Shown here piece by piece: positions 31,809 through 53,139 of a stretch of DNA of 64,000 nucleotides. The notes beneath the pieces are model-generated. The model made no database searches. It worked only from the letters and a program-made list of their open reading frames with translations, and was not told where the DNA came from. Source of the stretch: Zoogloea oleivorans (GTDB lineage: Bacteria; Pseudomonadota; Gammaproteobacteria; Burkholderiales; Rhodocyclaceae); assembly GCF_008107625.1 (NCBI RefSeq), contig NZ_SDKK01000002.1, forward strand, positions 221,756 to 285,755. The letters are read 5' to 3'. The stretch's first letter is position 1; each line of letters begins with the position of its first letter. The position numbers and the translations under genes are program-made.

Positions 31809-31820
31809 CGGTGCCGGCCC

Positions 31821-33059: not shown

Positions 33060-36000
33060 CTAGGCGGCCGTGTGCTCTTTGAGCATTTTCTTGATGAGCG
33101 TCTCGACGAATTCAATGTCGACAAATGGAACTTGGGCGTAGATCACCTCCCTCTCACCTTCGAGTTTCGCTAACAGATGACCTTTGCCCAGCAGACGTTC
33201 CGCGCCTTTTTCGCCAAGAGCGATTTCGGATGTTCCTTCCGAGTCGACACGCAGAATCAGGCGATTGCCCAAATTTGAGCGCAGTTGCATCGGCATAACA
33301 TTGGCATCCGGCCGCTGGGCGGCGAAAATTAGATAGATGCCCGCGGCTCGAGCCTTCACACCGAGCCGCTGAACGATTGCCGACACGGCGTCCTTGTAAT
33401 CTTCCGTCAGCATCCATTCGGCGAACTCGTCGTGAATGAGCCAGATGACAGGCAGGCGTTCGTTTGCTGCGACCTTGGCATTGAAGGCGGCCAGATTGGA
33501 TACGCGCGTTTCCTTGAAGCGAGCGTAGCGGAGGTCCATTTCGGCCACGAGTTCTTCGAGCCGCTGAGTTGCCAAGATCTGATCATCGATGACACCGCCG
33601 TCGATATGCGGCAGCCTGTCGAAAGCGAAATAGTCAACGCCTTGTTTGGGGTCAATCAGGACGATCTTCGCTTGTTCCGGTGTGTTGGTCGCGGCGATCC
33701 CCATGATAATGTTCTGCATCAGCACGGACTTGCCACTGCCGGTGCTGCCCGCGATCAGCGTGTGTGGCGCATGGTCTTTACCAGGTGAGAGGAACAGGGG
33801 AGCGCCCGAGTTTTCTTGCACTGCGATCATGAGCTCTTGATTACCCCAACCGTTCGAGGCCGGTGACCAATCGGACCAAAGGGAGCGGATATCAATGATC
33901 TGGCGTTTGGGTCGCTCCACCGCGACGATGACGGCACCGGGTTCTGGGCGGACCGAGATGACGTTCAGTCCATAGGTCGTCAAAAGCTCGGACCGCTTCT
34001 TCAAGACCTGCTCGACAGTGAGGTTGGCGTTGCCGGCGAACCGCAATAGCGCAGAATTGGGCGTAAGAGCGGACTCGATCAATTTGGCCTGAAGCTGTAA
34101 CTGCTGCAGGGCGCTGCGCGTCGAAAAGGCTGTTTGCTTGAGCCATTCCCCTTCTTCAGGTGCGATAGTGGCCACGTGGAGCGCCGACGCGAGCAAATCG
34201 GCGATCTCCGAATAGGCCCAATGAGCTTGCGCCCGTGTCGGCGAAGAATCGACGGGTAACGGCACGCTATCGCCAGGGAGCGGCGTGTGGAACAGATTTT
34301 CGATGCTCGGTTCCGTTGGCGCTTCAGCGGGTGTGTCCGGCGCTTCAGGAACAGGGAGTGCAGGCAGGGGCGCCGGTCTGCGGACAGGCGCGCGATATGC
34401 ACTGCGGAGAAAGGCAACGCCGGAGCCCGGAGCACGCCAGGTTGGCTCAAAGTCCATATGGTAGAAACCCATGCTGCGCCGGACGTCGGCGGTGCTCTGG
34501 TTGTGCCAGTAGGCCATCAAGAGCTGCTTGAGCGCCTTGCGGCCGATGATTTCCTGATAGGCGTAGCGAGTGTCGGCGACCTCGGTTGCGATCGTGAGAT
34601 CGTCGGCGTCGGACGAGGTCGGAACGAAGACATGAGATAGGCCTTTGAGGTGGACCTCGCAGCGGCCCTCGCGCATAGCGCGGCGCCATTCGCCGAGATC
34701 AATGCCGCGGGCGGCCGGGATGCGGATGCCGTCAAGCATGAGGTCAGCCAGCCGAGCTAGCCAGGATTGGCGGTCGAGCCGCTCCGGATCACCGAATATG
34801 GCGTCTTCTAGGCGCTCAAGCGTATCGCGCAGCTGTTTTTGCGATTCTTTGCGCTTGGCGGCCAGGCTCTCGATCTCGACGTATTTCGCTTCGCTGACAG
34901 CGAGCGTGATTCGCAGTGTGCCTTCTTCGGCGACTTGGGGGCAGATTGCGAGCAGATCGGCGATCTGTTGTTCGCGCTGGCCAAGCCAGGACGCATAGTC
35001 ATCAAGAAAGTACCAGCCGATCAGCTGATCGGCACCCAAGTCGTCACGCAACATGCGGCGGCTCAGCACGATGCCCATGAGTTCGCTGGCGCTCTGGCCG
35101 CATGTGGCCGCACGCAGCACGATGTCACCCGACACATCATTAGCGTCGTCGATCAGGCGATCGGCCAGTGTCCGCACCTCGGCGTCGGTCAGCGGCAGCT
35201 GCAGCGCCTTGAGGCGGCTCATAATCATCGAGCGCAAAAGCGTCATTGGCGCCCGCGAAGAGATGATCAGGTTGCGCCCCTGGGTCGAGATCTGCTTGTA
35301 GCGTATGACCCGGACCTGGTGGTTCATTAGCTGACGCCGGTCGAGAAGCTCGTCGAAATTGACGACCCAATTGCCTAGGTCGTGGGTCTCTTCGAAGATG
35401 CGCTTGGTCCGGCCGTCGGCAAAGTCGAGCTGGCGAACGGGCAAAAACCGTTTGGATGTCGATTCATCGCGGTCGCCTTTGAAAATGCTCGCGACGGCGG
35501 AGATATAGGCCCAGCCCTCGGCGCTTTGTACCGGGCAGCATAGGAAGACCGCTGACTTAAGGTCGTCTCTGGCGGCCGGCCGGCGGCGCGACCAGCGTGA
35601 CGGCAACAGCTTGCGAATGTCGGCTGGTTCGCCTTGTTCGAGATACCATTCAAGTTGCGCGTGACGCGATATGACATCTTGCGAAAAGACGATGTCGTAT
35701 GGATGGCCGTCTTTGGGGTTGGGCGGCGGCGCCTGGTCAGCAATCACCGAGATCCGCAGGCGGGCCATGAAGTCTTGAGAAGCTTCACTCGCGCTATAGG
35801 CGTCTGCCGTAGCTTCGGAGCTCAAGATCGAGCAATAGATGTTACGAAGCTTCTGGCTTTCGATGTGGCGCAGCAGAACTTGGCATCGAACGTCGTCCTC
35901 GTCATCCTGCATGCCGCCGATCTTCGCCACGACCGCCTGAGGCAGCCGCGCGGAATCGCAATTAAACAGTACGACCGACAGGTTGGAGCGTTCGTGCGGT

Positions 36001-38333
36001 TGCAGGGCGAGATAGCGCTTGACGAGGTCATGGACGCAGGAGCCGCCCTCAGCTGGGCTTTCATTGGTGTCGTTCTCGCCTTTGGGGTCGGCGACGGGAG
36101 GTTCATGCAGACTGTAGTCGGCGACCACGTCGCTTACCGTAAGGAATTGTGGGCCGTCATTCGTCCAGATCGACACAATCTCAGGGTATAGCGCGTGCTC
36201 GAAATCATGAGCGATATCCCGGAAGAACAGCTTTGGATCGCCCTCTGCCTCGATGCTGCCGAGAACCTGACTGACGAGATCGACGGCAAGCTTAGACTTT
36301 CGCCATATGGCGACCAGACGCATCGGATGCCAGGGCGCGACGACGGCCGCCGGCCTGCCGCCGTCGATCGGCGCGACACCAATCATGAGCAGTGGCTTGA
36401 GCAGCTTGTCGCGATTGCGATCGCCCTTGGCGAGTGTTAGGACGGTTTCGAGCAGCGCAGCGTACGCTGTCGTCTGATTGAGTACGGAGTCGGCGCCGCC
36501 TCCTTTCGTCGAGAAGTCGACGATTGCGAGCTTGTAGGCACTTTCAAAGGCTGTAAAGGCCTCACCCAATGTCTTGGCATCCTGGGCGGAGAGATAAGCT
36601 TGATCGACGCACTCTTTGACATTGTTGCGCCAAAGCGCGTCGAGATTCCGGTCAGGTTTGGCCGCTGGCACGAATGAGCCGCGATCACGGTCGAACGCCG
36701 GCATGAACGTCTTTACGTTGGCCAAATCGATCGATTTGTCAGCGGTGAATTCGCGCTGTGTGCGGCAGGCCGTGAAGGGATTTTGGGTCAACCGCCCCCA
36801 GTCGTCGACCAATTGGCTCGCGACGCATGAGGGGTCGTAGCGCCAGATCAGCTGCGTCGAATGCTTTTGAATGCTGTCCCCGTCGGTCGTTGTCTCCAAT
36901 TCGACGACGAATTTGAGCTGAAGCGCCGGTTTGGCGGTGGACGTGTTGAGCTTGTTCTTGGCCTTGTCGCCCTTTTTCCAGTCGGAGACAAGCTTGTCGA
37001 ATTCGAAGAGATCGCCGACATCCCAATCGATCATCCCGCCGAACAGACGACGCAGGCCGGCGTAGCGGTGCGCGAAATAGAGACCTGCTTCATAGTTGAG
37101 AGATCGCAGGTCTCTCTTAGTCGCGGATTCGCATTTGATTTTCAGCTTGCGCTGATCGCCTGGCGGCATCCGGTTGTAAAGTGGCTCCATAACCGCGCAA
37201 ATGCCGGCGATGAAGTCGGTTGTTTCGATGGGGCGGCCATATACGAAGCGATCCCAAGCAGACTTCAGCTTCTTGTCGTCTTTGATTTCGCTACGGTGGG
37301 CTTCATAAAAATCCGTGTCTTCATCGATTTTTTCCGACCGCTTGGACAAGAGCTTGAGATATTCCCGCTCCTCATCCTCAAGCTTGTCTTCTTCTAGCTC
37401 ACTGAAGTATTCAAGTGTGTTTTTGCCAAGGTTGAATTTCTCACGCTGCAGGCCATCGAAGATCGGCTTTATTTGCTCCCAATCTTGTTCTGCTAAAGCT
37501 TCGGCCTGGGCGTTCCAGCCGCTGGGCGCCCCGATAAAGGCTTCGATCGCGGGATGACAGGCATTCGGGATCTGGTGCGCAACCTTTTCGAACGCGTTGC
37601 GCAGGTCTTCTTCGCTGAGCAGGAGCTGGCTTGAGGTCTGCTTGAGGAGCAGCCCGGATCGCCTCTTGTGAGCGTTGTTGAATTGCTGCTTCCATGCAGA
37701 TGCATGTCCGCGCTGGCGCTCTTTGAGGCTTCCGAAGCACGCAGGGTCGTTAGGAAGACGTAGTGCCGGCATTGCGGCGCCCAGCGCATCGATGATGGGG
37801 CGACCCGCTTCCTCGTTTTCTCGGCGGGTGCGCAAGATGTAGACGGCAAAGCGGTCGATCGAGACGATTCGAAGATCACGGAGCCCAGTCAGGGCTTTTT
37901 CCCACCATTTTTGCTGTTCCTGGGCGATAGGCAGGCCTTTTGAGGCCTCGCGAACCCAAAGGTCGATGCGCTCCAGTAGCTCAGGGGGGCCAAGTTTCGC
38001 AATTTCACGAATCGAGGCGTCTTCACCATGTTCGTGTTCGGCAAGTAGATAGGCGGCCTTCGGACAATCAGCGTTTCGATAGAAGGTGGCGCTTTCGGTC
38101 GTCAGAGTCTCATCGGGTAGGCCTTGGCCGCTCACAAGCGAGGTCGGTAGCTTGATGTCGATGCGCTCTTTGAGAAACGGATCCGCGAGCACGGCGCGTG
38201 CGACGGCTGCGACCTGTTCGGCGCTGAGATTGAGCACATACCGCGCAGTCGACTGCACTGCGCCCGTATCGGCCTGGAGTTCTTCGCGGAGATAGGCGGC
38301 GGCGACTGCGCCGACGAGCGAGGCTACGTTCAT
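33060..38333 (-). CDS. dptH: DptH-like FtsK/HerA-type ATPase of a phosphorothioation-linked restriction module
   Basis: This is a 1757-residue protein ending in an FtsK/HerA-type motor domain. Walker A is GSTGSGKS at residues 1529-1536, and Walker B is IWLIHDEFAEW near 1630-1640. A further conserved segment, FAAQRPDANVMP, and the VDSEGTSEIALGEKGAERLL region are typical of DNA-translocating FtsK domains. The long N-terminal part (about 1400 residues) is unrelated to FtsK and fits the DptH (TIGR03237) type. DptH acts with DptF and DptG to restrict DNA lacking phosphorothioate marks. It overlaps the DptG-like gene by 4 bp and is the last gene of the operon. The region is visibly less GC-rich than the conjugation genes. 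Family assignment rests on length, domain order and gene order. Confidence 0.75.
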   Translation of the reverse strand: MNVASLVGAVAAAYLREELQADTGAVQSTARYVLNLSAEQVAAVARAVLADPFLKERIDIKLPTSLVSGQGLPDETLTTESATFYRNADCPKAAYLLAEHEHGEDASIREIAKLGPPELLERIDLWVREASKGLPIAQEQQKWWEKALTGLRDLRIVSIDRFAVYILRTRRENEEAGRPIIDALGAAMPALRLPNDPACFGSLKERQRGHASAWKQQFNNAHKRRSGLLLKQTSSQLLLSEEDLRNAFEKVAHQIPNACHPAIEAFIGAPSGWNAQAEALAEQDWEQIKPIFDGLQREKFNLGKNTLEYFSELEEDKLEDEEREYLKLLSKRSEKIDEDTDFYEAHRSEIKDDKKLKSAWDRFVYGRPIETTDFIAGICAVMEPLYNRMPPGDQRKLKIKCESATKRDLRSLNYEAGLYFAHRYAGLRRLFGGMIDWDVGDLFEFDKLVSDWKKGDKAKNKLNTSTAKPALQLKFVVELETTTDGDSIQKHSTQLIWRYDPSCVASQLVDDWGRLTQNPFTACRTQREFTADKSIDLANVKTFMPAFDRDRGSFVPAAKPDRNLDALWRNNVKECVDQAYLSAQDAKTLGEAFTAFESAYKLAIVDFSTKGGGADSVLNQTTAYAALLETVLTLAKGDRNRDKLLKPLLMIGVAPIDGGRPAAVVAPWHPMRLVAIWRKSKLAVDLVSQVLGSIEAEGDPKLFFRDIAHDFEHALYPEIVSIWTNDGPQFLTVSDVVADYSLHEPPVADPKGENDTNESPAEGGSCVHDLVKRYLALQPHERSNLSVVLFNCDSARLPQAVVAKIGGMQDDEDDVRCQVLLRHIESQKLRNIYCSILSSEATADAYSASEASQDFMARLRISVIADQAPPPNPKDGHPYDIVFSQDVISRHAQLEWYLEQGEPADIRKLLPSRWSRRRPAARDDLKSAVFLCCPVQSAEGWAYISAVASIFKGDRDESTSKRFLPVRQLDFADGRTKRIFEETHDLGNWVVNFDELLDRRQLMNHQVRVIRYKQISTQGRNLIISSRAPMTLLRSMIMSRLKALQLPLTDAEVRTLADRLIDDANDVSGDIVLRAATCGQSASELMGIVLSRRMLRDDLGADQLIGWYFLDDYASWLGQREQQIADLLAICPQVAEEGTLRITLAVSEAKYVEIESLAAKRKESQKQLRDTLERLEDAIFGDPERLDRQSWLARLADLMLDGIRIPAARGIDLGEWRRAMREGRCEVHLKGLSHVFVPTSSDADDLTIATEVADTRYAYQEIIGRKALKQLLMAYWHNQSTADVRRSMGFYHMDFEPTWRAPGSGVAFLRSAYRAPVRRPAPLPALPVPEAPDTPAEAPTEPSIENLFHTPLPGDSVPLPVDSSPTRAQAHWAYSEIADLLASALHVATIAPEEGEWLKQTAFSTRSALQQLQLQAKLIESALTPNSALLRFAGNANLTVEQVLKKRSELLTTYGLNVISVRPEPGAVIVAVERPKRQIIDIRSLWSDWSPASNGWGNQELMIAVQENSGAPLFLSPGKDHAPHTLIAGSTGSGKSVLMQNIIMGIAATNTPEQAKIVLIDPKQGVDYFAFDRLPHIDGGVIDDQILATQRLEELVAEMDLRYARFKETRVSNLAAFNAKVAANERLPVIWLIHDEFAEWMLTEDYKDAVSAIVQRLGVKARAAGIYLIFAAQRPDANVMPMQLRSNLGNRLILRVDSEGTSEIALGEKGAERLLGKGHLLAKLEGEREVIYAQVPFVDIEFVETLIKKMLKEHTAA

Positions 38334-39856
38334 GCTGCGGATCTCCGCAAGGGATTTTCGACATAGGCGCAGGCGTCAGAGAGCCGCCGTAGCATGCCGA
38401 TAGTCTTGAGGCGATTTTCGAGCCGCGAGGCATTGGCTTGAAACGCGCGCTTGTCGAAATCTTCCGTGGTGATGGCGAGCTGGCCCTCCTGCTCCCCAAA
38501 GACGAGGCCGTAGCGGTCGTAGAGGCGGCCAAGGAATTGGCCGTAGTCCATGCGCACCGGAACGTTGGCGAGGATTAGGGCCTTGAGAAGTTCATCGGTT
38601 GGTGCGTAGCGCAGCCGATTGGTGCCGCGACGCGAGACCAGCCCTGCGCCTCGTCCGAGGCTGTTGTGGATGTTGGCCGTATGCTGACGATGGCGCCGCT
38701 GCGCTGTGTGACGCAGATTTTCGAGGAGAGCGTCAGGGTCGACTGGGCCGGTGTAGTCCTCATCGGGCCAACGCACTTTTTCTCGCATGATTTCACGGCA
38801 TGCCGCAAATCCCGACTGCTCTGCCGCCGCTGCGATCCACTCCGACGAATTGCCGATGTTTCGCACATAGGTATCGACAGCCGAAAGCGACAGTTGGTTG
38901 TTCGCGATGTAATTGCCTGCCGAAAGCTCGCGAACCAGCGTCTTCTTGGGCGCGACAACTTCGCAAATGAAGTGGGGTTTGGGCTTGTCACAGACGTGGG
39001 CGGCGACCTGTAGCTGATAAAGGGTGATATGAAGTGCTCCAAGGATCGTCAGGTACGGATAGGCGTCGAATCTCGGGAGCTGGAGCTCGAGAACGGCCAG
39101 CCAATCCTGGGCCAGCACCTCAAAGGCGGGATGCTTGGCGTAAGGCAGGTAGCTGCCGCTTCGCGTATGCCGCTCCTCGGCGATTTCCGGTTGGAGGAGT
39201 TCGGTTAGGCGATCGCAGGGATCACGCCGCTCGAACAGATGTGCAAAATGCCGCGCGAGCTCGGGTGCGGCGCTTGATCGCGCGAGCATCTGATAAAGCA
39301 GATCGCCGTTGCGCGTGAAATTGATGTATTCGCGGTTACCCTCAGTGTTGAGGTCTTCATAAATCGCATGGCGCCCGAACGGAAATACGAAGCGCGAACT
39401 CCATCTCTTATTCATGCTGCTTTCGATCGTCGCAGAGCGCAGCATTTCGATGACTTTGACGAGCTGTTCGAAGTTCTGAAATCTGTTCTTGAGGTAAGAA
39501 AAGTCGCGGTGGGCGACCATCTTGGCGTTGCTCTGCATCCACTCGAGCCATTTAGCCCATCCGGTTTCGTTATCGGGATAGAGATCGGCGAGCTCCAGCA
39601 GCTTGTCGTTGTTGAACAAGAGATTACGCAGATAGGGCCGTTGCGCCGGCCGGAAACTGAATGGAAATTGCGTCGCGTCAGCTGCGAATAGCTGTCCGGT
39701 TGCATGAGAAGCTTCTGCGACCGAGAGAAATTCGAGGAATAGGAGCCATGGGTCCTGCTCCCACAGTCGATGGCCCCAGATTTGTTCGTCGAGCCACAGG
39801 TCATTGTCATCATGATAGCTCGCCGGTGGCGGAGGAAGCTGGACAATGTCAGTCAT
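38330..39856 (-). CDS. dptG: DptG-like restriction-module protein
   Basis: The protein has 508 residues with no recognisable catalytic motif. It is assigned as DptG because it lies between DptF-like and DptH-like genes, overlapping them by 8 and 4 bp, and has the expected size. It is rich in aromatic and charged residues (WLLFLEFLSVAEASHATGQL near the N-terminus), with mainly helical prediction. DptG proteins are required for phosphorothioate-dependent restriction but their biochemical role is uncertain. Confidence 0.68.
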   Translation of the reverse strand: MTDIVQLPPPPASYHDDNDLWLDEQIWGHRLWEQDPWLLFLEFLSVAEASHATGQLFAADATQFPFSFRPAQRPYLRNLLFNNDKLLELADLYPDNETGWAKWLEWMQSNAKMVAHRDFSYLKNRFQNFEQLVKVIEMLRSATIESSMNKRWSSRFVFPFGRHAIYEDLNTEGNREYINFTRNGDLLYQMLARSSAAPELARHFAHLFERRDPCDRLTELLQPEIAEERHTRSGSYLPYAKHPAFEVLAQDWLAVLELQLPRFDAYPYLTILGALHITLYQLQVAAHVCDKPKPHFICEVVAPKKTLVRELSAGNYIANNQLSLSAVDTYVRNIGNSSEWIAAAAEQSGFAACREIMREKVRWPDEDYTGPVDPDALLENLRHTAQRRHRQHTANIHNSLGRGAGLVSRRGTNRLRYAPTDELLKALILANVPVRMDYGQFLGRLYDRYGLVFGEQEGQLAITTEDFDKRAFQANASRLENRLKTIGMLRRLSDACAYVENPLRRSAA

Positions 39857-41696
39857 TTGAGAGCTCTACAACTTGGTCGATGGCATTGCCGGTGGTATCC
39901 AGGGCAAGGAGCCGGAATATCAGGCCATCATCATCGTCCAGCACATGACGGTCGATCCCCGCAGCCGAGAGAAGAGCGCTCTTGAATGCCAGCAGATCCT
40001 CATAGCATTCGCGGGAGAAATTGCCAGGTAGTGCGCCTTCGCTCACGCGCATGAGGAATTCGTAGCGCGTGAGGTTGAGGGCCAGCGATCTCGTTTGTCC
40101 GTTGGGCAGCGTCACGATCAGATGCGGAAAGTCGCGGCACAGGGATATTTCGACTCGCTCCACACGCCCGTGGGAGTTGATGGCGACTTTGTCTTCGAGC
40201 AGTTGGCTAATCTTGGCGCCGGAGTGCGACAGACTGGTCGCTAGCAGCAGCTCGCTCTTCGTCGTGGTAAGGAGTCCAGTGAAGATGCGGTTGAGCCCAT
40301 TTACGAGCTTGCTGACTGTTTGACGCGACACACGCCTGCCGTCGTTTAATGGTTGTGCGACATCGCGCAGATATTCGCCAGCACTATTGAATACGGTTAA
40401 ACACCAAAGTTTCAGTTCGTCGGCGTGGGCATCTGGAATCTTGAAAAACAAGCCGCGCCTCTGGTCAATGAGCATGTCTAGGAAGGGGTGCCGTTCGCCG
40501 TTTTGCGCCTCTGGCATCTCGATATAGCTGCGTTGCTCGCCGCGATATCGTTCGGTTGCACCATAGAAGCCGTCGGCCTCGACCAGGTCATGAAAATATT
40601 GGCTGACGTTCTCGTCTTCCGAACCGAAAATCAGGATGTTGTCGATCCGGTTCGTGGTCTCAAAACCGATGCCAAATCGACTGAGATAGTCGAAGATTTC
40701 CTGTGCATCGCGTTTCGCGCTCTTCAGATTGGCACCGAAGAGATTGGCGAAGAGACTCGCCTTGTGGGTTTCTCCAGCGGCGAGGATCTTGGCCACGTCA
40801 GATGCAGACATGAGACCGTCCTTGGCTGCGGGATGGCCCAGGATAGCGTTGGCAAGCAGTAGAAGGACGCGCCGGACCGGGGTGTGGAGCTCGTTGAAGT
40901 CCAAGAGTTGGAATAACGCCACGAGCCGGGTACGCACGAGCGGGTCGCGCAAAAGCTCAAAATTGTGCCGGATCGGACATCCGGGACCGAAGAATCCGTT
41001 CGGTTGCGCGGCGGCATAGCAACTCTCCCAGCCCTCGTGGCCAAGGAGTGCGTCGAGACAGAGTGCCAGTACCGTCGCACTGGGCACTGCGCTGAGATTG
41101 AAGAAATGCAGGCGGTCGGTCGGCTCTGGATCTTCGTCATTCATGAGCCGGGCTTCGAACAACGCCAAGGCGCGCTGTGAGGCAGCATGGTTGCCTAGCT
41201 TTCGCCAGTTTTCGACGAGCGGCCCGTCATTGGCGGCGACCAGGAACAGATTGGACGAGGGCTCGAATAGCGCGGAGCTCAGTTCCTGCAGAAGCTGGGC
41301 CTTTGAGCCGTCTGGATCGTTCTTGCAGAACGGCGTCAGGTCGCGAATGAGATGGAGTGTGTAGGCGTGGCCATTGATGGTCACAGGCAGCTTGTAATAG
41401 GACATATTGCTGGCCCAGGCGTCTGGTGAGCCTCCCAACGCCTCCCATACTTGGTAGCAGAGGTAGCTCTTGCCGTCACCGGCTGTGCCGGTGAGTATGA
41501 CCACGCCGCCGTGGCCTTCTTTGCGGTCGGTGAAGGAGGCGAGTACGTCGCGGCTGAGCGGATGCTCGAAGGCAATGGGTGTGACGCTGAGCTTCTTCGA
41601 CCAGCGTCGAATCTCCTCGTCGTACATGTTCGCGTTGCGCGCGAGAGGACCATATTGCCTGACGAAGCTGATCCATTTTTCGGCGTCGATCGTCAT
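39849..41696 (-). CDS. dptF: DptF-like P-loop ATPase of the restriction module
   Basis: This 615-residue ATPase has Walker A GTAGDGKS at residues 70-77 (VVILTGTAGDGKSYLCYQVW). The following region contains an acidic PYxLP-type switch and a helical C-terminal half. Size, motif position and gene order (DptF-DptG-DptH) fit the DptF (TIGR03238) type. It begins 31 bp after the receiver-domain gene and is translationally coupled to the DptG-like gene. It probably fuels recognition or cleavage of unmodified DNA together with DptG and DptH. Confidence 0.72.
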   Translation of the reverse strand: MTIDAEKWISFVRQYGPLARNANMYDEEIRRWSKKLSVTPIAFEHPLSRDVLASFTDRKEGHGGVVILTGTAGDGKSYLCYQVWEALGGSPDAWASNMSYYKLPVTINGHAYTLHLIRDLTPFCKNDPDGSKAQLLQELSSALFEPSSNLFLVAANDGPLVENWRKLGNHAASQRALALFEARLMNDEDPEPTDRLHFFNLSAVPSATVLALCLDALLGHEGWESCYAAAQPNGFFGPGCPIRHNFELLRDPLVRTRLVALFQLLDFNELHTPVRRVLLLLANAILGHPAAKDGLMSASDVAKILAAGETHKASLFANLFGANLKSAKRDAQEIFDYLSRFGIGFETTNRIDNILIFGSEDENVSQYFHDLVEADGFYGATERYRGEQRSYIEMPEAQNGERHPFLDMLIDQRRGLFFKIPDAHADELKLWCLTVFNSAGEYLRDVAQPLNDGRRVSRQTVSKLVNGLNRIFTGLLTTTKSELLLATSLSHSGAKISQLLEDKVAINSHGRVERVEISLCRDFPHLIVTLPNGQTRSLALNLTRYEFLMRVSEGALPGNFSRECYEDLLAFKSALLSAAGIDRHVLDDDDGLIFRLLALDTTGNAIDQVVELSND

Positions 41697-41727
41697 TATC
41701 CCTTTTCCAACAGCGTTAAACTAAGTA

Positions 41728-43695: not shown

Positions 43696-43864
43696 TCCTT
43701 GCCCCTCTATAGCTGACAACGAATCCATGATGGATCCGGTCTTCATCGGCTTCCGCAAGTGCGATTTCCATCGCATTACCTTCCGCAAGCTTCTTCGCGA
43801 TATACAAACCCATCCCGCGCCCTTCGCCAGAAGGCTTGGTCGTGAAGAACGCATTGAATACTTC
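43682..43864 (-). pseudogene. 3' fragment of the IS-split GHKL ATPase gene
   Basis: This fragment encodes the last 60 residues of the GHKL/histidine-kinase-like protein, with the G2 box (FFTTKPSGEGRGMGLYIAKK). It is cut from the rest of its gene by the IS element. Joining 43682-43864 directly to 45461-47668 restores one continuous frame of 796 residues, with the junction reading GDEVFNAFF. Confidence 0.85.
43859..43864. repeat. Left copy of IS target-site duplication TACTTC
   Basis: TACTTC at 43859-43864 is repeated at 45455-45460 on the other side of the element. On the minus strand it reads GAAGTA, encoding the Glu-Val of the split GHKL protein. Confidence 0.85.
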
Positions 43865-45454: not shown

Positions 45455-47668
45455 TACTTCATCGCCGCGGTCTTCTGAAATCCCAGGACCGTTGTCCAAA
45501 ACGGTGAGTGTGTTGGCAGCCCTGTCGATGCTGAAGCTGATGATGGGCTCGAACCTCGTCGTCGTCGCAAGCAATTTGAGCCAATAAACCGAGTTGGAGA
45601 TGAAGTTTTCTACGATCTGCAGAAGCTGCCCGCGGACGGCCTTGATCAGCACGGGCGTCTTGCCTAGACCGGTCAGGTCGACTCGGATTCCATGACGCCC
45701 ACATTGAGGTTCGTGCATTTCCACGACATCCCGCAGCATCTGAACTAGGTCAAACGATTCCTTCCTTTGACGCCCCGGCGTCGACAATGGATCTAGGATT
45801 CGGATCCGCCTCTCGAGAGTGCTCAGTTGATCTCGCAGATTCCGAAGCTGGCGGTTTTCGGTAGCGTTGCTCGGCTTGTAGGTCTGCAGCAGCTTCAAGG
45901 CGTTTGCGGAAAGGCGCGCCAATTCATGGAAGATGAACTCCGTCATTAGGCCGACGCCCGCGAGATGGACGTATTTGTCAATGTCCTCCTCATAGGCGCG
46001 CACGGTCATCTTCGAACGCTCCCAGGCTTCGGACATGTCCGTCATGCGAGCAAGCAGGGTGTTGATCGCCGCGACGTCCTCCGGAGCCTTGACTTTGGTC
46101 CTCAGGTGTTGGACCTGTTTCAGCGCCTGTTTCTGGGCTTCCTCCAGGCGCTTCTCCAGCTTCGGAAACTCCTTAGCCGCCGACTCGTCCTGTGCCCCCT
46201 CAACAGCGTTGAGGTAGCTCTTGAACTCGACCACCAAGATGTGGCGCAATAGTGCGATCAGTGCTGCTTTCTCTTCCGTGTCGCGCAAGCCTTCCCGATT
46301 GGTCTGATCCTGCAGATGTGGGTTGCCACGACTGGAGATGCGGACCGCACCGACCAGCTGTTTCCGATTCATTTTGTAGCCCTGCGTGGCCAACGCAATG
46401 CCGTCCAGGTCGAGCCAGTCGTCACGCGCCTCTGCGTACGGATATACGCGATAGTGATCGCGATAAAGCAGTAACCCTCCGCCCCAGTGAGTCAACCACT
46501 GCAGGGCCGCTTCATAGCCATCAGGCTTATCGAGGCGAAGCTTCTGCCGGTTAAACCAATGCGCCTCCATCTCAAAAGGGCCTAGGCTCGCTAGACCCTG
46601 CATCAGCGTACCCGCTGGACGGAATGCCTCGCCCGTCTTTGGACGCTTGCCCTTCAAAGTCAGTGCGCTGAGAAGATGCATCCCCTCCAGGCTGAAGGTC
46701 TTGCTCTGTCCGTAGGCCTTGTAAGTTACCTCACCCGATAGGACAGGTTGCCCGTCGGCATCGAGCGCGAAACTCGCCGAGCATCGTGCATGCGCGTATG
46801 CGAGCTGACGCGTCTGAAACGAAGGGATGTCGACTGACTGCCCATTAAAGTACAGTCGCACATTCGGGCGGCTGAACGAAGTCAGGAACGGATCCACCAA
46901 CTTGGCGAAATCTGTCTTCGCAAGAGACTCCATCTTTTCGATCGACCACTCGCTCGTCAGGTTCGACATGCGGATGATTGTGCCGTGATCAGACGCCTTG
47001 TTCTTCTTCGGCCCGACGTTGGGAGCTGCAGGGAACTCGTCTAGGTTGAGGTGTGGATTGCGTTTGATCGTGGACCAGTCGATCTTGAGTTCATGCAGCG
47101 TCTTATCGCCCGTCTTAGACGTCAAGACGTGAAGCTGATCGCCAAGGCGCACGGCGGAGAGGCGGCCGATGCCCTTTTCACCAAGCACCGTGTGGGTGCT
47201 GTTGCGCATTCGATCGTCCAGGCGGTGGGTGGTGCCAATGGTGAGATAGACGCCACCAAGGTCCTCGAACGACATGCCGCCACCGTCGTCAGTAATCTCG
47301 ACCCAATTGCAGCGTGTGTAGGCGGCATCTAGTGCCTGGATGTAATCACCATTTGACGGCGACAGCGCCTTCTCTAGAAATGCATCACGGTCCGCCTGCG
47401 CTGCCGTGGGCTCCATGCCGGCCTCGAGCATTTGCCGAACCGTATCCCGAGAGAGACTTTCCTTCTTCTGGAAAGATCGCTCAAGGCTCTGGCGAATGCC
47501 GAGGTATTCACTGCGCGGTAATGTGACGCGAACATGTACTGCAATGCGCGTGGCCCGCGCATCTAAAGAGTTCTTCACCAACTCGTAGATAGCGATCTGG
47601 TCGGAGCTGATCAACTCAGCACCGAGTTCAAGCAGGACGCGAGCCTTGACTGTTATACCCACAGACAA
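45386..47668 (-). CDS. Dual GHKL ATPase / sensor-kinase-like protein, truncated by IS
   Basis: The intact gene would encode 796 residues. Two ATPase domains of the GHKL (Hsp90/MutL/histidine-kinase) superfamily are present. The N-terminal one has ELVKNSLDA (28-37), DDGGGM (127-132) and GEKGIGR (163-169), like MORC/Hsp90/MutL. The C-terminal one resembles a histidine kinase: an FIFHELARLSAN H-box-like helix, the N-box IVENFISNSV and G1 box DNGPGI; the G2 box is in the severed 3' fragment. The surviving frame ends with 22 residues encoded by the IS. The first codon is TTG at 47668, with GTG at 47662 as an alternative. It lies 94 bp after the PAPS-reductase gene, and the receiver gene follows it. 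Confidence 0.83.
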   Translation of the reverse strand: MSVGITVKARVLLELGAELISSDQIAIYELVKNSLDARATRIAVHVRVTLPRSEYLGIRQSLERSFQKKESLSRDTVRQMLEAGMEPTAAQADRDAFLEKALSPSNGDYIQALDAAYTRCNWVEITDDGGGMSFEDLGGVYLTIGTTHRLDDRMRNSTHTVLGEKGIGRLSAVRLGDQLHVLTSKTGDKTLHELKIDWSTIKRNPHLNLDEFPAAPNVGPKKNKASDHGTIIRMSNLTSEWSIEKMESLAKTDFAKLVDPFLTSFSRPNVRLYFNGQSVDIPSFQTRQLAYAHARCSASFALDADGQPVLSGEVTYKAYGQSKTFSLEGMHLLSALTLKGKRPKTGEAFRPAGTLMQGLASLGPFEMEAHWFNRQKLRLDKPDGYEAALQWLTHWGGGLLLYRDHYRVYPYAEARDDWLDLDGIALATQGYKMNRKQLVGAVRISSRGNPHLQDQTNREGLRDTEEKAALIALLRHILVVEFKSYLNAVEGAQDESAAKEFPKLEKRLEEAQKQALKQVQHLRTKVKAPEDVAAINTLLARMTDMSEAWERSKMTVRAYEEDIDKYVHLAGVGLMTEFIFHELARLSANALKLLQTYKPSNATENRQLRNLRDQLSTLERRIRILDPLSTPGRQRKESFDLVQMLRDVVEMHEPQCGRHGIRVDLTGLGKTPVLIKAVRGQLLQIVENFISNSVYWLKLLATTTRFEPIISFSIDRAANTLTVLDNGPGISEDRGDEVVGPEIFNLPPPAASLTAGPRCR

Positions 47669-47762
47669 TTACCTACCGGTGCAAGAGCTGAGCGCCCAAT
47701 CAACAGGGGGGCGCTCGACGCTCGGAAGTTTCCCGACAAGATGGCTCTGTGCTCAACAGCAG

Positions 47763-48590
47763 CTACAACTGACATACGAGGCACCCTTGATCATCATCGT
47801 CCTCCGGCACCTCGGCGGAATCCGCTTGGGAGAAGACCTCCATCAGCGTCACGTTTTCGCGGCGCTGGGCCTTGCGCTCGATACGGATCACGTGCTCGCG
47901 CTTGATTTCCTCCATGCGTTCCGGCCGCTCCAGCTCTGCCAGGCTTTCCCCCTGGCTCCACGTGAAGAAGTTACCGGTCTTCTCGTATGGCTTTTCGTAC
48001 GCCTTGGCCTTGTCGTACAAGTCCGGATACGTTTCCTTGAGGCGGACCCACTCAATCTTCTGCTGGTAGAAGCAGAAGTAACATCCCGAGCGGGTACGGC
48101 CCCAGCGTGTGTATGGAGGCATGCCGACGCCGGAATTCCTCAGGATTTCTTCGATGTCGCGCAGCACCAGTCCGTCTTCGCGGAACGGATAGACAGCCTT
48201 GATGTTCGGCTTGTGGCTGATGTAGCCGCTGCGGTCCTCGTCAGCGCGCAATCCAACGTAGTTCACGACCTCGTCGTTGCCGCAATATTGCTCGAAAGGC
48301 TTGAGCTTCAAGGCCCGCGTGCACCAGCGCCGGTGATTGGATGGAATCATGCCGCCGTACATCTCGTACCAGTGGTCGAACCCGACGTCTGCATTGAGAT
48401 GCGTCACTTCCTTGCCGAGGTAGTTCGAGATGCGTTGCAGATACTCGTAGGTCTCGGGAAGCTCCTTGCGCGTGTCGCTGAAGATGTATTCCATCTCCGG
48501 CACGCGGTCACGCAGGTAAATGGCCAGTGCCGCGCTGTCCTTCCCGCCAGACAAGCTGAGAATATGTCTAACCCGCTTCTCGCTTGTCAT
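47763..48590 (-). CDS. DndC-like PAPS-reductase-fold sulfur-transfer enzyme
   Basis: This 275-residue protein is a PP-loop enzyme with SGGKDS at residues 14-19. It has Cys90 (RRWCTRALK), Cys170 and Cys173 (SGCYFCFYQ) and a C-terminal CLVC (270-273), fitting an iron-sulfur cluster and sulfur relay as in DndC. DndC-type enzymes activate DNA for phosphorothioation. Assimilatory CysH is less likely because the gene lies in a defence operon and no cys genes are near. The start at 48590 overlaps the ATPase gene by 23 bp; a longer frame begins at 48623. No cysteine desulfurase (DndA/IscS) is encoded here and would be supplied by the host. Confidence 0.85.
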   Translation of the reverse strand: MTSEKRVRHILSLSGGKDSAALAIYLRDRVPEMEYIFSDTRKELPETYEYLQRISNYLGKEVTHLNADVGFDHWYEMYGGMIPSNHRRWCTRALKLKPFEQYCGNDEVVNYVGLRADEDRSGYISHKPNIKAVYPFREDGLVLRDIEEILRNSGVGMPPYTRWGRTRSGCYFCFYQQKIEWVRLKETYPDLYDKAKAYEKPYEKTGNFFTWSQGESLAELERPERMEEIKREHVIRIERKAQRRENVTLMEVFSQADSAEVPEDDDDQGCLVCQL

Positions 48591-51500
48591 GGTGCTTCTC
48601 CTCGGTGGAATTCGTCGGTGCACGCGTTACCTGCAAGTTCTGCAGTGCCTGCGCCAGTGCAGCAGCGGCGGTCTGTGGGTCAGCACCGGCCTCCTGCGCG
48701 AGCAGGTCCAACAGGTTGTGCGCAAGCCGGGTGGAATGCTCGGTCGTGGCGACCAGCAACGCGGACTCCTGCCCGCTAGCGCTGGTGAGCGTCAGGCTCA
48801 TGAAGCGTTCGGCAGCGCGCGGTGCGCCCTTGCGCTGCATCACCAGACGCAGCCAGCGTCGGTAGTGGCCGGAGATGTCTGTCACAGCCTGAGCAAAACT
48901 GACGACAGTCTCGTCCGTCCAGGCGTCCAAAGGGAGCTGGACGAGTAGGCTGGCCACGGAATCGAGCCACTTCTCGTCCGTCAGCGTTAAGTCCGTGCAA
49001 CGCAGGATAAAGCTCTTGAGTCGGGCGTCTGCCAATCCGGTAGCGGTACCAGAGCATTCGGACTGCAACTGGCTGCGGATCTTGCCAAGCGGGCCGATCA
49101 TCTCAAACGCTTGCCCCAGCTCTGTGACCACAACATCCTGCAGCTTGCGTTGGCTCATGCCCAGATCAACCAGCGCCGCAGACAGCCATTCTTGAAAGGG
49201 GCGTTTCCCCTTGCTCTGGGCATACACTTTAGGCAGCGTCGAGGTCAGCAACTGGATCGGATCCTGCGCTTTGCGCAAAGCCGAGCGAACCAGTGCGGCA
49301 TCCTTGCTGACTCGTCCTGTCTGTTGAGTGAAATCCGACAGCCGTCCGAACCAGCGGTACAGGGCCCGAGCTAGCTCCAGATATGTCGCTTCGCCGCTGG
49401 GCACGGCCCCAAGCGAGGCAAGCACAGCGCCGTAGTCACGCAACAAATTGTGGCCGCCCTGCGCCTGCGGGAGTTCGCGCAACGTGAACGTGTGCGGATT
49501 CCGATGCATGCGCTGAAGGTGCTCGCTCGTGAGTTCCAGCACCAGTGTGCCCCGCTCGAAGACTGCGCAGCGACTGCGATGGATCATCAGGTAAAGCGTG
49601 ACCCATACGCTGGCTGGACCATTGCGTACACCAAACGGCGGAGCAGCAAGCTCCTGAAGCACTTGCTCGAACGTGGGTGCCTCGTCTCTCGTCAGGACGA
49701 GCGAAATCTCAGTCCAGAGTGCGCAGATGTCGACGCGAGCCCCAAGCTTGGGTTCAACGAGCTCGCAGTCGTTGCCGTCGGCCTGCCATATGCCCGTGTC
49801 GCGCAACAGCGTGGCGTGGATTAGCCGCTCGGGCGGGTACTCGTTGTCGCGAAAGAGTGTGGCTCCACCGGAACCAGCCAGCAGAGCGTCAAGCAACCGC
49901 TGACGCGCAAGGACGATAGCGGAAGCGGGGCGATCCTTGTTGATCAGCTCGTTGATGATGCGCGGAGCACGGTGGAAGACCTTCTCGAACATCCAAGATG
50001 CCACCTGGCCGACGTTCATCGACTCGCTGTCCGGCACAGCCTTACCCTGGTGCCAATACACTGGGCCAATGCGCCCCGGATTAGACGCCAATGCGGACAA
50101 CACGAGTGCATCGACATCCTCTTTGGCCTGATGGAGGCGGCTCTCGACGTACTGGCTGGTCCAGGGATCGAGCCGCTTGGCCGCTACCTCGCGCTGCACC
50201 GCCAGCCAGATCGCCAACTCTGCGAGCGCCGCCCGCCCCCGAGCGGACAGCGACAGGCAGCAGTGCACGCTGAGCGGATCGTCCGCGTCGCGTACGCGGT
50301 CCAGGACTTGTCGCTCTTCCCGTGAGTCTGCCGTCACCAGGATTAAGCGGAGCCAGCCGTCAGGTTGCCCGTCTGAATCACTTCTGTTGGCGCCTGCATG
50401 GGGCCACGCGGTGACTGTTCCGACATCAATGGCTAGTGTGCGGATCGTTCCCCGGCGGTCATAGTGCTTGTTGGCCACAACCAACCGATTCCCAAGCGCG
50501 TGCGAAGCACCACGCACAGTAAGCTCGTCGTCGCCCGCCTGCGCCGCTTGCTCGTAGAGCGCTTCGATGTTAATGGCATCTGATACAGCGAATCCGTATT
50601 CGGAACGGCTGTGGCGGCAGATCAGCAAGCCTTGGTCCACCAGGCGGTCAAGTAGCGTCCGTGTCTCAGAGACTGAGAGGTTGCCGAGCGCGAATGCGAC
50701 CAACTCCGGAGTAATGCGTAGCGCGAGGGGTGCCTGCACCAACTCCAACACGGCGATGGTCTTGAGTGCCACCAGAGCGTCCGCGTCTTTCGCCTGCCTC
50801 TCAATGCTGACGAGTGCAAATGCCCAACGACGCTCTGCAGCGAGATCGCGAAAGCGTAGCCCATTCCCCGAAGCCAGATAGTCGAACACCTGAGCCAGGC
50901 GATACCAGGGGTATCCCTCTACGGAGGTGACTTGCGCAAAGTCCCGAAGCCCCGCCGGCTCGTTGCTGTTGAGGAAGGCATGGAATGAGCGCTCGCTCTG
51001 ACCATAGCGTTTGGAGACGACGGCCAGCGAAGCCAGCGTCAGCGGATGGAGGGGGTAAAGTTTCTCGGGATGCTGGAACAGACGACGGTCAGCGGGGGTT
51101 GGCGCCCGAAGGATGGATTGCTCCAGCGCCGTTGCGAATAGAGACCGTGCGGCACCCACGAGTTTGGAATCGCGGTGCAGCGCCGGCTTAGTGCCTAGCG
51201 CATGGGTCGCGAAGTGGACGTAGCGCTCGACGGGCTCGTCGAAGGGTATCTCCTCGAAGCGCGACGCGACCTTGTGCCATTCGTCCCCCAGAGCGCGGCC
51301 AATGCCTGCCGCGTAGCTCGCGAAGTGCTGGTGCTGAAGCACAACCATCGCGAGAGAATCGTCCCCTTGCCGGCATGCTTCCTCAGCCAGTTGTTGAAGT
51401 GCGATCAGGTCCCCTGCTTCTGGGTGCATCGCGGCGTGCTCGACGAACTTGCCCACTTCATCAACCAGGAGCAACGTGCCAGAGAAACCCTGTGCTCGAG

Positions 51501-52026
51501 CGACAGACGCGAAATCGCGCATCAGTTCCCCGGCAACCGCGTTGATGGGGCGCCCCTTGTAGAGGCCCGGCTCGCTCAGATGGCGCTTCAGGGCGTTTGC
51601 CCCTTTGCCTTGGTGCCAGCCTTCCAGAGCGCGATGGACTTCCGCTTCCAGCGCTAATCCGATGGACAGCCGCGCTCCCACGATCGCGAGCGCGAAACGC
51701 TTGGAACTTGCGAATAGGTCGGCGACAGACGCGGAGGCTTCCCGCAGCATTTCCGAGGCCGCAGGATGAGTGTCACGACCAGCGAGCAATTGGGCAAGCA
51801 CAATCCCCAGCGCCGACTTGCCGCTTCCGTACGGACCAACCACTTTCCAGGCACGCTGAGACCGACACTCCGCAAGCGCCGTACCGATCTGCTTGAGCGC
51901 CTGGACGGCATTGGGCGTAGGCAGGTAGCTGGCGATGGTCGTATCGTCGTGAAGGTCGCGGCTCAGCGAGATTGAGCGGGTGTGGTGCGCGTTCAGCTCC
52001 AGTCCATCGATGATTCGTTTAAGCAT
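48568..52026 (-). CDS. Large P-loop ATPase of the sulfur-modification module
   Basis: This protein has 1152 residues from ATG 52026. Walker A is GPYGSGKS (64-71) and Walker B LLLVDE (185-190), followed by a conserved LPVQHQHF-like sensor stretch (VVLQHQHFASYA). The rest is a large helical and winged-helix-rich region with no known catalytic motif. Its scale and architecture recall BrxC/PglY-type ATPases of BREX systems, but I see no PglZ, PglX or BrxL here. It overlaps the DUF4007 gene by 8 bp and the PAPS-reductase gene by 23 bp. It may take the place that DndD holds in Dnd systems (inference). Confidence 0.78.
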   Translation of the reverse strand: MLKRIIDGLELNAHHTRSISLSRDLHDDTTIASYLPTPNAVQALKQIGTALAECRSQRAWKVVGPYGSGKSALGIVLAQLLAGRDTHPAASEMLREASASVADLFASSKRFALAIVGARLSIGLALEAEVHRALEGWHQGKGANALKRHLSEPGLYKGRPINAVAGELMRDFASVARAQGFSGTLLLVDEVGKFVEHAAMHPEAGDLIALQQLAEEACRQGDDSLAMVVLQHQHFASYAAGIGRALGDEWHKVASRFEEIPFDEPVERYVHFATHALGTKPALHRDSKLVGAARSLFATALEQSILRAPTPADRRLFQHPEKLYPLHPLTLASLAVVSKRYGQSERSFHAFLNSNEPAGLRDFAQVTSVEGYPWYRLAQVFDYLASGNGLRFRDLAAERRWAFALVSIERQAKDADALVALKTIAVLELVQAPLALRITPELVAFALGNLSVSETRTLLDRLVDQGLLICRHSRSEYGFAVSDAINIEALYEQAAQAGDDELTVRGASHALGNRLVVANKHYDRRGTIRTLAIDVGTVTAWPHAGANRSDSDGQPDGWLRLILVTADSREERQVLDRVRDADDPLSVHCCLSLSARGRAALAELAIWLAVQREVAAKRLDPWTSQYVESRLHQAKEDVDALVLSALASNPGRIGPVYWHQGKAVPDSESMNVGQVASWMFEKVFHRAPRIINELINKDRPASAIVLARQRLLDALLAGSGGATLFRDNEYPPERLIHATLLRDTGIWQADGNDCELVEPKLGARVDICALWTEISLVLTRDEAPTFEQVLQELAAPPFGVRNGPASVWVTLYLMIHRSRCAVFERGTLVLELTSEHLQRMHRNPHTFTLRELPQAQGGHNLLRDYGAVLASLGAVPSGEATYLELARALYRWFGRLSDFTQQTGRVSKDAALVRSALRKAQDPIQLLTSTLPKVYAQSKGKRPFQEWLSAALVDLGMSQRKLQDVVVTELGQAFEMIGPLGKIRSQLQSECSGTATGLADARLKSFILRCTDLTLTDEKWLDSVASLLVQLPLDAWTDETVVSFAQAVTDISGHYRRWLRLVMQRKGAPRAAERFMSLTLTSASGQESALLVATTEHSTRLAHNLLDLLAQEAGADPQTAAAALAQALQNLQVTRAPTNSTEEKHHDKREAG

Positions 52027-52924
52027 GGATGGGAGCCTCCTCGTGTGCATCCAGTAGGTAGTACGGATCGACGCGGTCGCGGTGAAGTACAACGCTTTGC
52101 GTGTCGGAGGTGTCGACGAAACGCACGGCATCGCGCAAGGGGCCTTGTGCCACGTTCTCCACGAAAGCGCGCAACTGGTGTTCATCTAAGCGGAAGACGA
52201 CCCCGGGGCTGTTCACCCCCTTGAGCAGACGATGGAAATCCACAGATGACGAGCCTTGTTCGGACGAAGCTACAAACTCCACTAACGCAATAGCAAACAC
52301 GCGCAGGCTCAAACCGATTGGCGCGCGAAGATCGGTGTTAAAGACGATACGTCCATCTTCTTCCTTGGCGGCGCGCAGCAATGCAAGATCCTGCAGCGGG
52401 CACCAAGAGGTGTCGTCGCCACTACGCTCGGCTTGGTAGTAACTTTGGAGAAAGATGGCTGCATGCTGCTCCAGCGTGCTGGCGGCGAGCGGCCTGGCTG
52501 AACCTTCGGCGCGTTGGGCCAGTGCCGCGACCAGCCGCTGACGGTCGAAGCGCACCAGTCGCCCCTCACCAAACACTTCTGACCAGGCTGCCAGCGCCGC
52601 ACGAGTACATAGACGCCAATGCAACAACCACAGCGACTCAAGAGACTCCAGATGCTGGTCCCACCCGTGCTTGGGGTCGAGCAGCTTGCGTCCGACGGGA
52701 CCAGGTTGGTGCCCATGACCCGTCACGGACACAAGAATGCCCGTGGCCTCGCACCAGAATTGCAGCGACTTCAGCATGTTGCGACCGATACCCAGAGCGT
52801 GCATTGCCCGCTCTTCATCCTTCAAAAGGCCGGGCTCGACAGAGACCGCCTGGTAGGCCTTTGGTAACCAGCCATATCGGCAGACGAAGGACTCGTGTCC
52901 GGAAAAGCGATCGGTGACTGTCAT
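52019..52924 (-). CDS. DUF4007-family protein
   Basis: This 301-residue protein opens with FSGHESFVCRYGWLPKAYQA, the hallmark N-terminus of DUF4007, followed by ALGIGRNMLKSLQFW, a helix-turn-helix-like stretch that could bind DNA. From what I recall, DUF4007 genes recur next to PAPS-reductase-like genes in predicted phosphorothioation or defence loci. Its activity is unknown. It overlaps the AbrB-like gene by 4 bp and the ATPase gene by 8 bp. Confidence 0.85.
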   Translation of the reverse strand: MTVTDRFSGHESFVCRYGWLPKAYQAVSVEPGLLKDEERAMHALGIGRNMLKSLQFWCEATGILVSVTGHGHQPGPVGRKLLDPKHGWDQHLESLESLWLLHWRLCTRAALAAWSEVFGEGRLVRFDRQRLVAALAQRAEGSARPLAASTLEQHAAIFLQSYYQAERSGDDTSWCPLQDLALLRAAKEEDGRIVFNTDLRAPIGLSLRVFAIALVEFVASSEQGSSSVDFHRLLKGVNSPGVVFRLDEHQLRAFVENVAQGPLRDAVRFVDTSDTQSVVLHRDRVDPYYLLDAHEEAPIHA

Positions 52925-53139
52925 GGTGCCTTGGTCTTGTTCTTGGTGCGTTTCGCGCCGATAGAAGCCTCAGCGGCCTCTGCCGATGGAGAGCGTTCGA
53001 CGATGATGGCCTTTGTGGTAGCGTCGAAATACAGATCCACTGAATCACCCTCCTGGATGCCGGCATTGCGTAGCAACGCTTCAGTGAGGGCAATTCGTCC
53101 CATTTTCTGTACTTTTTTTGTACCGAAATGAATCTTCAT
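52921..53139 (-). CDS. AbrB/SpoVT-fold small DNA-binding protein
   Basis: The protein has 72 residues. Residues 1-50 form an AbrB/MazE swapped-hairpin pattern (KVQKMGRIALTEALLRNAGIQEGDSVDLYFD). The C-terminal tail is basic (KRTKNKTK). It is the first gene of the defence operon and, by analogy to other AbrB-like proteins, probably represses or tunes it. It could also be an orphan antitoxin, but no toxin lies next to it. The ATG at 53139 is chosen because the frame upstream to 53283 has no homologous features. Confidence 0.72.
   Translation of the reverse strand: MKIHFGTKKVQKMGRIALTEALLRNAGIQEGDSVDLYFDATTKAIIVERSPSAEAAEASIGAKRTKNKTKAP

Follow-up and report, generated by a model that had tools for sequence, protein, structure and literature searches.

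A 64,000-nucleotide stretch of the Zoogloea oleivorans genome (contig NZ_SDKK01000002.1, forward-strand positions 221,756 to 285,755; hereafter the window, to which all coordinates refer unless a locus is named) carries an Ssp operon for DNA phosphorothioation, in which the genes for a GHKL ATPase and a receiver protein lie between the modification genes sspBCD and the restriction genes sspFGH. We propose that the GHKL/receiver pair is a phosphorelay sensor/effector module for phosphorothioate marking and forms the third module of the Ssp operon, a reading to which we assign a probability of about 0.55. Computed in support of it were the family identities of the proteins, their domain order and catalytic residues, the association with ssp genes in distant bacteria, modularity and purifying selection. 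A preliminary description of the operon, made from the sequence alone, had correctly located a signalling-like pair between the two halves of the operon and did not make it the main point; we consider the pair to be the noteworthy part.

The GHKL and receiver proteins

The 796-residue GHKL protein of an intact copy of the operon in Zoogloea dura (L005; L and G numbers denote comparison loci and genomes) was the reference for later analyses. Pfam places a HATPase_c_3 domain in the N-terminal part and a HATPase_c domain in the C-terminal part of the L004, L005 and L008 proteins, in agreement with the dual GHKL protein described earlier. In an AlphaFold2 model based on 49 sequences (predicted local distance difference test score, pLDDT, 78.9), the protein is predicted to begin with a GHKL-S5 head and to continue through an extended coiled coil and a hairpin of two helices, which bears His581, to the ATP-binding domain of a kinase. 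By Foldseek, the model matches DNA-bound MORC2 (E 6e-12) and histidine kinases such as ZraS (E 1.4e-11); the sequence matches of the kinase half are likewise to histidine kinases (best E 2.9e-44). Judged by its predicted fold, this protein joins a MORC-like ATPase to a cytosolic histidine kinase. All 49 aligned sequences keep His581, N688, N692, G753 and G755 as well as the GHKL motifs of the N-terminal part, and D725, G727 and G729 are each found in 48. With the phospho-accepting His and the N and G boxes of the kinase, and the acidic pair, Asp and Lys of the receiver, the residue set of a two-component system is complete.

The receiver protein (655 aa; 41728..43695, minus strand), also recognised in the preliminary description, has an N-terminal receiver domain with D19, D20, D149, S191 and K219; D20, D149 and K219 are present in all 14 Ssp-linked receivers, and D19 and S191 in 13 of them. 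Its second, C-terminal domain contains Cys387-Asp388, which is likewise found in 14 of 14 Ssp-linked proteins and may mark an active site or a ligand site; in a wider set of 34 proteins, 32 have Cys387. The Ssp-linked receiver of L064 gives a weak Pfam Response_reg match (E 0.0014, under the family cut-off), and the window protein matches no Pfam family at E≤1. Nothing was found with the receiver model in BFVD at E≤0.001, or with the receiver profile among PDB sequences at E≤10. Foldseek relates the second domain, in a weak model and as a lead only, to MazF-mt1 (6l29_A; probability 0.95, E 0.09, template-modelling score by target 0.49), a match that ranks behind several unconvincing ones with better E-values; a profile search gave no match to a MazF/PemK fold, and the comparison with one PemK had a probability of 0.3%. 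The receiver evolves more rapidly than its GHKL partner, and for that reason tblastn with it found only two plasmid records; its presence elsewhere was judged by gene position, a profile built for it here and the conserved residues. That profile derives from 14 of these receivers, which makes its scores for those 14 circular; the receivers of L028, G240, G1250, G1397, G1308, G1284 and L064 are outside it.

The GHKL and receiver proteins are under purifying selection. In unsaturated comparisons the ratio of nonsynonymous to synonymous substitution rates is 0.05-0.14 for the pair and 0.02-0.13 for the Ssp proteins; comparisons of the pair with L014, and L008 comparisons for SspC and SspD, were left out as saturated.

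Association with phosphorothioation genes

A tblastn search of 72,556 plasmids with the intact GHKL protein gave 437 records, and coverage reached 80% or more in 22 of them. All 16 plasmids with near-full-length homologues (86-99% covered, at least 29% identity) carry sspD, at a distance of 22 to 12,176 bases from the GHKL gene, and the overlap with the 94 SspD-matching records has a hypergeometric probability of 1.6e-47 (1.1e-35 for the 12 distinct records). The other six of the 22 (21-24% identity) were excluded, not being among the matches listed, which are 60 of the 94 sspD records. Twelve of the 16 plasmids were fetched, and in each of them a receiver gene is next downstream and ssp genes lie within ~10 kb. 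With ssp genes given as letters and the receiver gene as REC, the order is A-B-C-GHKL-REC-D-F-G-H in Chlorohelix (Chloroflexota), A-B-C-D-GHKL-REC in Methylorubrum extorquens ATCC 55366 (L018, no FGH in the fetched stretch), F-G-H-GHKL-REC beside D-C-B in Polaromonas, and GHKL-REC beside D-C-B in Acinetobacter baumannii (L027). The Methylorubrum locus also has an annotated DNA adenine methylase before sspA (L018:3069-3773; 89 bits with Type II methyltransferase models, over two stretches).

Genomes were drawn evenly from the class of the window strain (369), the class of G693 (385) and the order of the window strain (399); the first and third draws may share genomes. Besides that of the window genome, 27 distinct sspD loci were found (E 1.5e-91 or better) and all were fetched, 3 of them on contigs of <11 kb and 24 with at least 18 kb of sequence. 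The pair is present in five of the 27 (G240, G1250, G1397, G1308 and G1284; by draw 1/9, 0/8 and 4/10), FGH in nine (three divergent, 30-68 bits by profiles built here), and the two together in two, so that three of the five pair loci are without FGH. In four genomes with BCD and the pair (B. latens, G240, G1308 and G1284), no SspG was found with the closest PADLOC model, which a divergent SspG could escape; the positive controls G000 and G1250 were both matched.

The pair behaves as an exchangeable third module beside SspBCD and FGH. In a mirror-tree of identities (18 loci, 153 pairs, which are not independent because the close relatives L003, L005, L007, L008 and L014 are included), co-variation is tight within modules: 0.99 for SspB-C, 0.92 for SspB-D, r=0.98 for GHKL-REC and 0.995 for SspF-G (10 pairs). 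SspBCD and SspF/G co-vary at 0.85-0.95 (10-15 pairs), and the pair co-varies loosely with SspBCD, at 0.56-0.65. In G030 (L014), SspB, C, D and F are 83-96% identical to the window family but the GHKL protein only 33% and the receiver 18%; the pair has therefore been swapped there.

Relatives of the pair extend beyond phosphorothioation. A search of viral contigs with the GHKL profile gave 107 relatives; the 80 that were kept and seven genome regions of other relatives make up 87 loci. Two IMG/VR contigs (L064 and L065) carry recognisable ssp genes with the GHKL gene, and the system thus occurs on contigs classed as viral. A common order in many of these loci is DNA methyltransferase, GHKL gene, receiver-like gene; such cassettes include L061, L074, L087, L096, L109 and L117 (viral-classed contigs and one genome region). 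Among 49 upstream genes from the 87 loci (same strand, 300-620 aa), matches were to N6_Mtase (18), Eco57I (14), the C5 family DNA_methylase (13) and N6_N4_Mtase (8), counts that may overlap. Downstream genes matched Response_reg in 14 and Response_reg_2 in 2 cases at E≤0.01 (54 of 79 scanned), the remainder being receiver-like by position and eye only. Second downstream genes (32 of 39 scanned) matched HNH (11), polynucleotide-kinase-type phosphatase (4) and Lactamase_B (3), and the output genes of some methyltransferase cassettes look like nucleases.

The Ssp operon and its interruption

The operon consists of nine minus-strand genes (53139..33060) with mostly overlapping junctions, as had been described. 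Intergenic gaps in L005, where the operon is intact, are -4 between the small first gene and sspB, -8 (B/C), -23 (C/D), +94 (D/GHKL), -14 (GHKL/REC), +31 (REC/F), -8 (F/G) and -4 (G/H). The small first gene (72 aa; 52921..53139, minus strand, ATG read at 53139) has copies 73-100% identical upstream of sspB in L002, L003, L005, L007 and L008; the earlier label AbrB-like has no Pfam support, as no family matches at E≤0.01 and relaxing the limit to E≤1 adds just two names, both unrelated and below threshold. It is followed by sspB (301 aa; 52019..52924, minus), whose product is the DUF4007 protein seen previously (PF13182, 197 bits; PADLOC SspB PDLC02764, 374 bits). Next come sspC (48568..52026, minus), encoding the 1152-residue P-loop ATPase already noticed (motif GPYGSGKSAL; PADLOC SspC PDLC02777, 1636 bits), and sspD (47763..48590, minus), encoding a 275-aa PP-loop (PAPS-reductase-like) enzyme (PADLOC SspD PDLC02782, 396 bits). 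The SGGKDS motif reported for the latter is present, as LSGGKDS, with a Pfam PAPS_reduct match, but its description as DndC-like does not hold, the DndC score being 17.2 bits. Beyond the pair lie sspF (615 aa; 39849..41696, minus; PADLOC SspF 681 bits, DndF 17.6 bits), sspG (508 aa; 38330..39856, minus; PADLOC SspG 637 bits) and sspH (1757 aa; 33060..38333, minus; PADLOC SspH 2224 bits), the last with an FtsK/SpoIIIE-like C-terminus (PF01580, 115 bits). There is no sspA in the operon, and two IscS proteins above the TIGR02006 cut-off are encoded elsewhere in the genome; according to the available text of PMC8092258, the Ssp system of Vibrio anguillarum likewise employs iscS with sspBCD.

The preliminary description was right to see a phosphorothioation-type defence operon with a modification half and a restriction half. 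It took the operon for a Dnd-type system in which DUF4007 and the large ATPase replace DndB, DndD and DndE and the downstream trio are DptF, DptG and DptH, and suggested a distinct new class. There is a superficial likeness to such a system in the PP-loop enzyme, the P-loop ATPase and the FtsK-like protein. However, the proteins belong to Ssp families by hundreds of bits, the best Dnd scores in PADLOC are 17.2-17.6 bits, no dpt model is among the NCBIfam matches, and both profile scans place the downstream trio outside the Dpt families, so that the Dnd-type class is refuted and retains virtually no probability. Nor is the core a new class, because the SspBCD-SspFGH gene set was published in 2021, as the text available for PMC8092258 records. 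BREX (bacteriophage exclusion) type 4 was also considered and rejected: none of the nine operon proteins matches PglZ or BrxL, and in PADLOC the BrxC/BrxP matches are weaker than those to SspC/SspD.

The preliminary description left unstated that the GHKL gene of the window is split by an insertion. Its 5' part (738 codons; 45455..47668, minus strand) stops short of the G2 box in the ATP-binding domain of the kinase, and the 3' remainder (43682..43868, minus) was placed by alignment of the window to L005 and L002. Between them lies an insertion sequence of 1586 bp (43869..45454, plus strand), absent from L005 and L002, with a transposase reading frame at 43975-45438 (Pfam DUF772 and DDE_Tnp_1). 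It is the single full-length copy found in the genome, which has five partial matches elsewhere. On the intact copy, the alignments from either side of the insert have 10 bases in common, which is what a target-site repeat would give. The longest open reading frame across the receiver gene (41728-45207) extends into insertion-sequence DNA. The cut gene loses the end of the kinase domain, with the G2 box residues G753 and G755, and the pair is for this reason probably inactive in the window strain; the reading frames of sspBCD and sspFGH are whole. In the Rhizorhabdus plasmid pUPO218, it is sspF that is split, around an annotated IS5-family transposase (L022:6933-9653).

The operon is an SspBCD-SspFGH system carried by a conjugative-type mobile element. 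Beside it are a DUF4400 gene and a TraG/TraD-type coupling protein gene of a mobile-element backbone (53222..56139, minus), and on its other side the conjugation genes TraI_2 (15263-17230), TraG_N (18660-20177) and TraC (24976-27864), all on the minus strand. Positions 31731-43868 and 45455-55288 are 99.98-99.99% identical to the intact copies in Z. dura (L005) and Aromatoleum tolulyticum (L002), the outer ends of these stretches being set by the extent of the fetched loci; this identity points to recent transfer between genera.

Several other loci with sspBCD or the pair deserve mention. Two islands with sspBCD and the pair lie beside gyrB (L008:12258-14759, by Pfam; L168:8927-11356 in G1308, a 67% identical protein), which suggests an insertion hotspot. 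In L004:1055-11965, the pair stands without ssp genes beside TniQ, assigned by Pfam, and three genes that resemble a Tn7-like set, through a weak AAA domain match or through their position, and relatives of all four genes (25-35% identity) are found near sspBCD and the pair in G1284 (L174/L175). Five further loci, of the 24 with at least 18 kb, have a superfamily 2 (SF2) helicase and/or a separate GHKL ATPase near sspD. The presence of both the helicase (ResIII) and the ATPase (HATPase_c_3) was confirmed in L144 (2797-6250) and L155 (953-4354), and that of one of them in L147 (2778-4436), L158 (1274-3214) and L042 (829-2448). The L144 module is PbeA-like (71 bits) and MzaB-like (59 bits), and the helicase/GHKL module is a further candidate partner of sspBCD.

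Proposed mechanism and alternatives

In the mechanism that we propose, SspBCD with IscS would put a sulfur mark on self DNA, and an ATP-driven, MORC-like clamp would inspect DNA. On invading or unmarked DNA, clamp closure would turn on the kinase, His581 would be phosphorylated, and the phosphate would move to Asp149 of the receiver protein. The receiver output domain would then act: it could by itself be the restriction/effector partner of SspBCD, or it could gate SspFGH. We infer the ATP-dependent clamp, autophosphorylation and phosphotransfer from known families; the sensed signal and the action of the output domain are guesses. Among 12 loci compared (L008, L018, L019, L020, L023, L027, L028, L064, G240, G1308, G1284 and L004), no neighbouring gene is common to all, and the second domain of the receiver is for this reason the first effector candidate in loci without FGH, where few neighbours were scanned for alternative effectors and the SspE search covered chosen neighbours.

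Histidine kinase and receiver pairs are usually transcriptional, and the main rival explanation, which we consider unlikely, is that the pair is an ordinary two-component regulator tuning ssp expression. This would fit the A. baumannii locus L027, where the pair is beside SspD-C-B, and the histidine kinase genes that adjoin SspE in 211 Acinetobacter strains, for which the available text of PMC7464106 speculates on SspE regulation. It is harder to reconcile with the window receiver, which has no DNA-binding family at Pfam E≤1, with the Cys-Asp of the receiver C-terminal domain in all 14 Ssp-linked proteins, with the HNH or metallo-beta-lactamase-like genes that follow some methyltransferase-linked relatives, or with a sensor half that is a MORC-like ATPase and not the usual ligand sensor. 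Alternatively, the pair could be an accessory gate for SspFGH only, switching the nuclease complex on at infection without being an effector. The location between sspD and sspFGH in the window operon would agree with such a gate, as would the proximity of the pair to FGH in L017, L021, L022, L024, L025, L026, G1250 and G1397; we judge it improbable nevertheless, given that the pair occurs without FGH in G240, G1308, G1284 and B. latens, that no FGH is present in the fetched 22 kb of L018, L020, L023, L027 and L028, and that the pair and SspF/G co-vary at only 0.45-0.69 (10-15 pairs).

The pair might also be independent cargo on mobile elements that it happens to share with ssp. Many copies are plasmid-borne, an intact pair stands alone beside TniQ in a 97% complete genome without sspD (L004/G039), a receiver remnant (L006) occurs in another genome without sspD, and G1284 has the relatives of the Tn7-like set near ssp and the pair. 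Against these stand the presence of sspD in 16 of 16 plasmids, the proximity to sspD or FGH in both Pseudomonadota and Chloroflexota, and the tight operon junctions, which together make hitch-hiking very improbable.

The intact pair and the receiver remnant found in genomes without sspD also weigh against a phosphorelay module dedicated to phosphorothioate marking, as do several other points. The pair is present in a minority of the sspD loci from the genome draws, and in none of the eight of the second, and is thus not essential to Ssp. The window strain has lost the kinase yet kept BCD and FGH. According to the available text of PMC8092258, E. coli was protected by SspFGH together with IscS-SspBCD when no such pair was present, so that FGH needs no pair in that system. 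The receiver model is weak (pLDDT 59.6), and the C-terminal output domain has no Pfam family and its profile no significant PDB match. Finally, other candidate effectors exist in pair loci without FGH: an annotated endonuclease in L027, and in L019 and L020 a shared 805-806-aa protein (69% identity) without a PADLOC match. Among shared neighbours, the gene for the latter (L019:14630-17050 and L020:7276-9693, in plasmid loci of Devosia and Ensifer that also have sspABC and the pair) ranks first as a further candidate.

The pair may be a missing partner of 'orphan' sulfur-marking genes. Wang et al. (2021) counted 2,211 of 2,678 sspBCD operons with neither sspE nor sspFGH and raised possible further restriction partners of sspBCD, according to the available text (PMC8092258); the pair turns this question into a concrete, clonable candidate. 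A wider scheme, which we offer tentatively and regard as possible rather than probable, is that SspBCD phosphorothioation is one of several interchangeable marks within a broad class of phosphorelay restriction systems, that a MORC-type clamp would read a missing methyl or sulfur group and fire a His-Asp relay into a receiver-linked effector, and that in many orphan sspBCD operons, perhaps the one in A. baumannii global clone 2 (GC2) among them, the part of restriction partner would fall to this relay in place of SspE or SspFGH, the Ssp receivers having a built-in, possibly MazF-like effector. Sulfur and methyl marks would then feed the same kind of signalling machine, and MORC-type ATPases would gain a role in bacteria that can be read out as phosphorylation.

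Comparison with known systems

Two-component signalling is used in defence by Detocs, in which a histidine kinase hands phosphate to a receiver-effector. We take the Ssp-linked pair to differ from Detocs in sensor, effector and gene context.

The operon core has the same sspB, C, D, F, G and H families as the published SspABCD-SspFGH system, with iscS used with sspBCD, and the phosphorothioate mark given in the literature for SspABCD is CpsCA; the terms 'histidine kinase' and 'GHKL' are absent from the main text of that paper (PMC8092258). A close likeness to the pair is seen in the two-component-system-like restriction-modification element that Bellieny-Rabelo et al. (2021) describe, in the text available, beside C5/N6 methyltransferases (PMC8011034). 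It combines HATPase_c_3, HEF_HK (PF19191) and HATPase_c with Response_reg_2 (PF19192), and thus also has a paraMORC-like GHKL domain, a kinase and a receiver next to DNA modification genes, with the His and Asp conserved. The Ssp-linked proteins were tried as members of these families and rejected: no PF19191 match was found at E≤0.01 in four GHKL proteins (the window piece, L004, L005 and L008), and no PF19192 match at E≤0.01 in three receivers (window, L004 and L064). The systems differ in that the Ssp partner is phosphorothioation, and 'phosphorothio-', 'DUF4007', 'PAPS' and 'Ssp' do not occur in the main text of PMC8011034. MORC/paraMORC ATPases of restriction-modification operons (Iyer et al. 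2008; PMC2292703, available text) likewise have an N-terminal GHKL-S5 ATPase in DNA-modification operons, whereas the Ssp-linked GHKL protein is fused to a full histidine kinase and has a receiver partner.

The Acinetobacter reports possibly concern the same pair, in one genus (L027). In addition to the strains with histidine kinase genes by SspE (PMC7464106), an A. baumannii GC2 Ssp system without a cognate nuclease has been described with a two-component system in the region (PMC12421847). It is uncertain which pair these papers mean, because L027 holds both the GHKL-receiver pair and an ordinary HAMP-kinase/response-regulator pair; neither a MORC-kinase/receiver module nor its wide spread is described in the available text of either. 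HATPase and REC are among the domains that a figure legend of a 2026 prediction paper gives for systems predicted but not validated (PMC13092281, available text). Apart from these papers, none among the matches listed in the open-licence literature describes the pair as an Ssp module. The marking genes are known, and so is the type of two-component-like element; what is new is their combination and its breadth.

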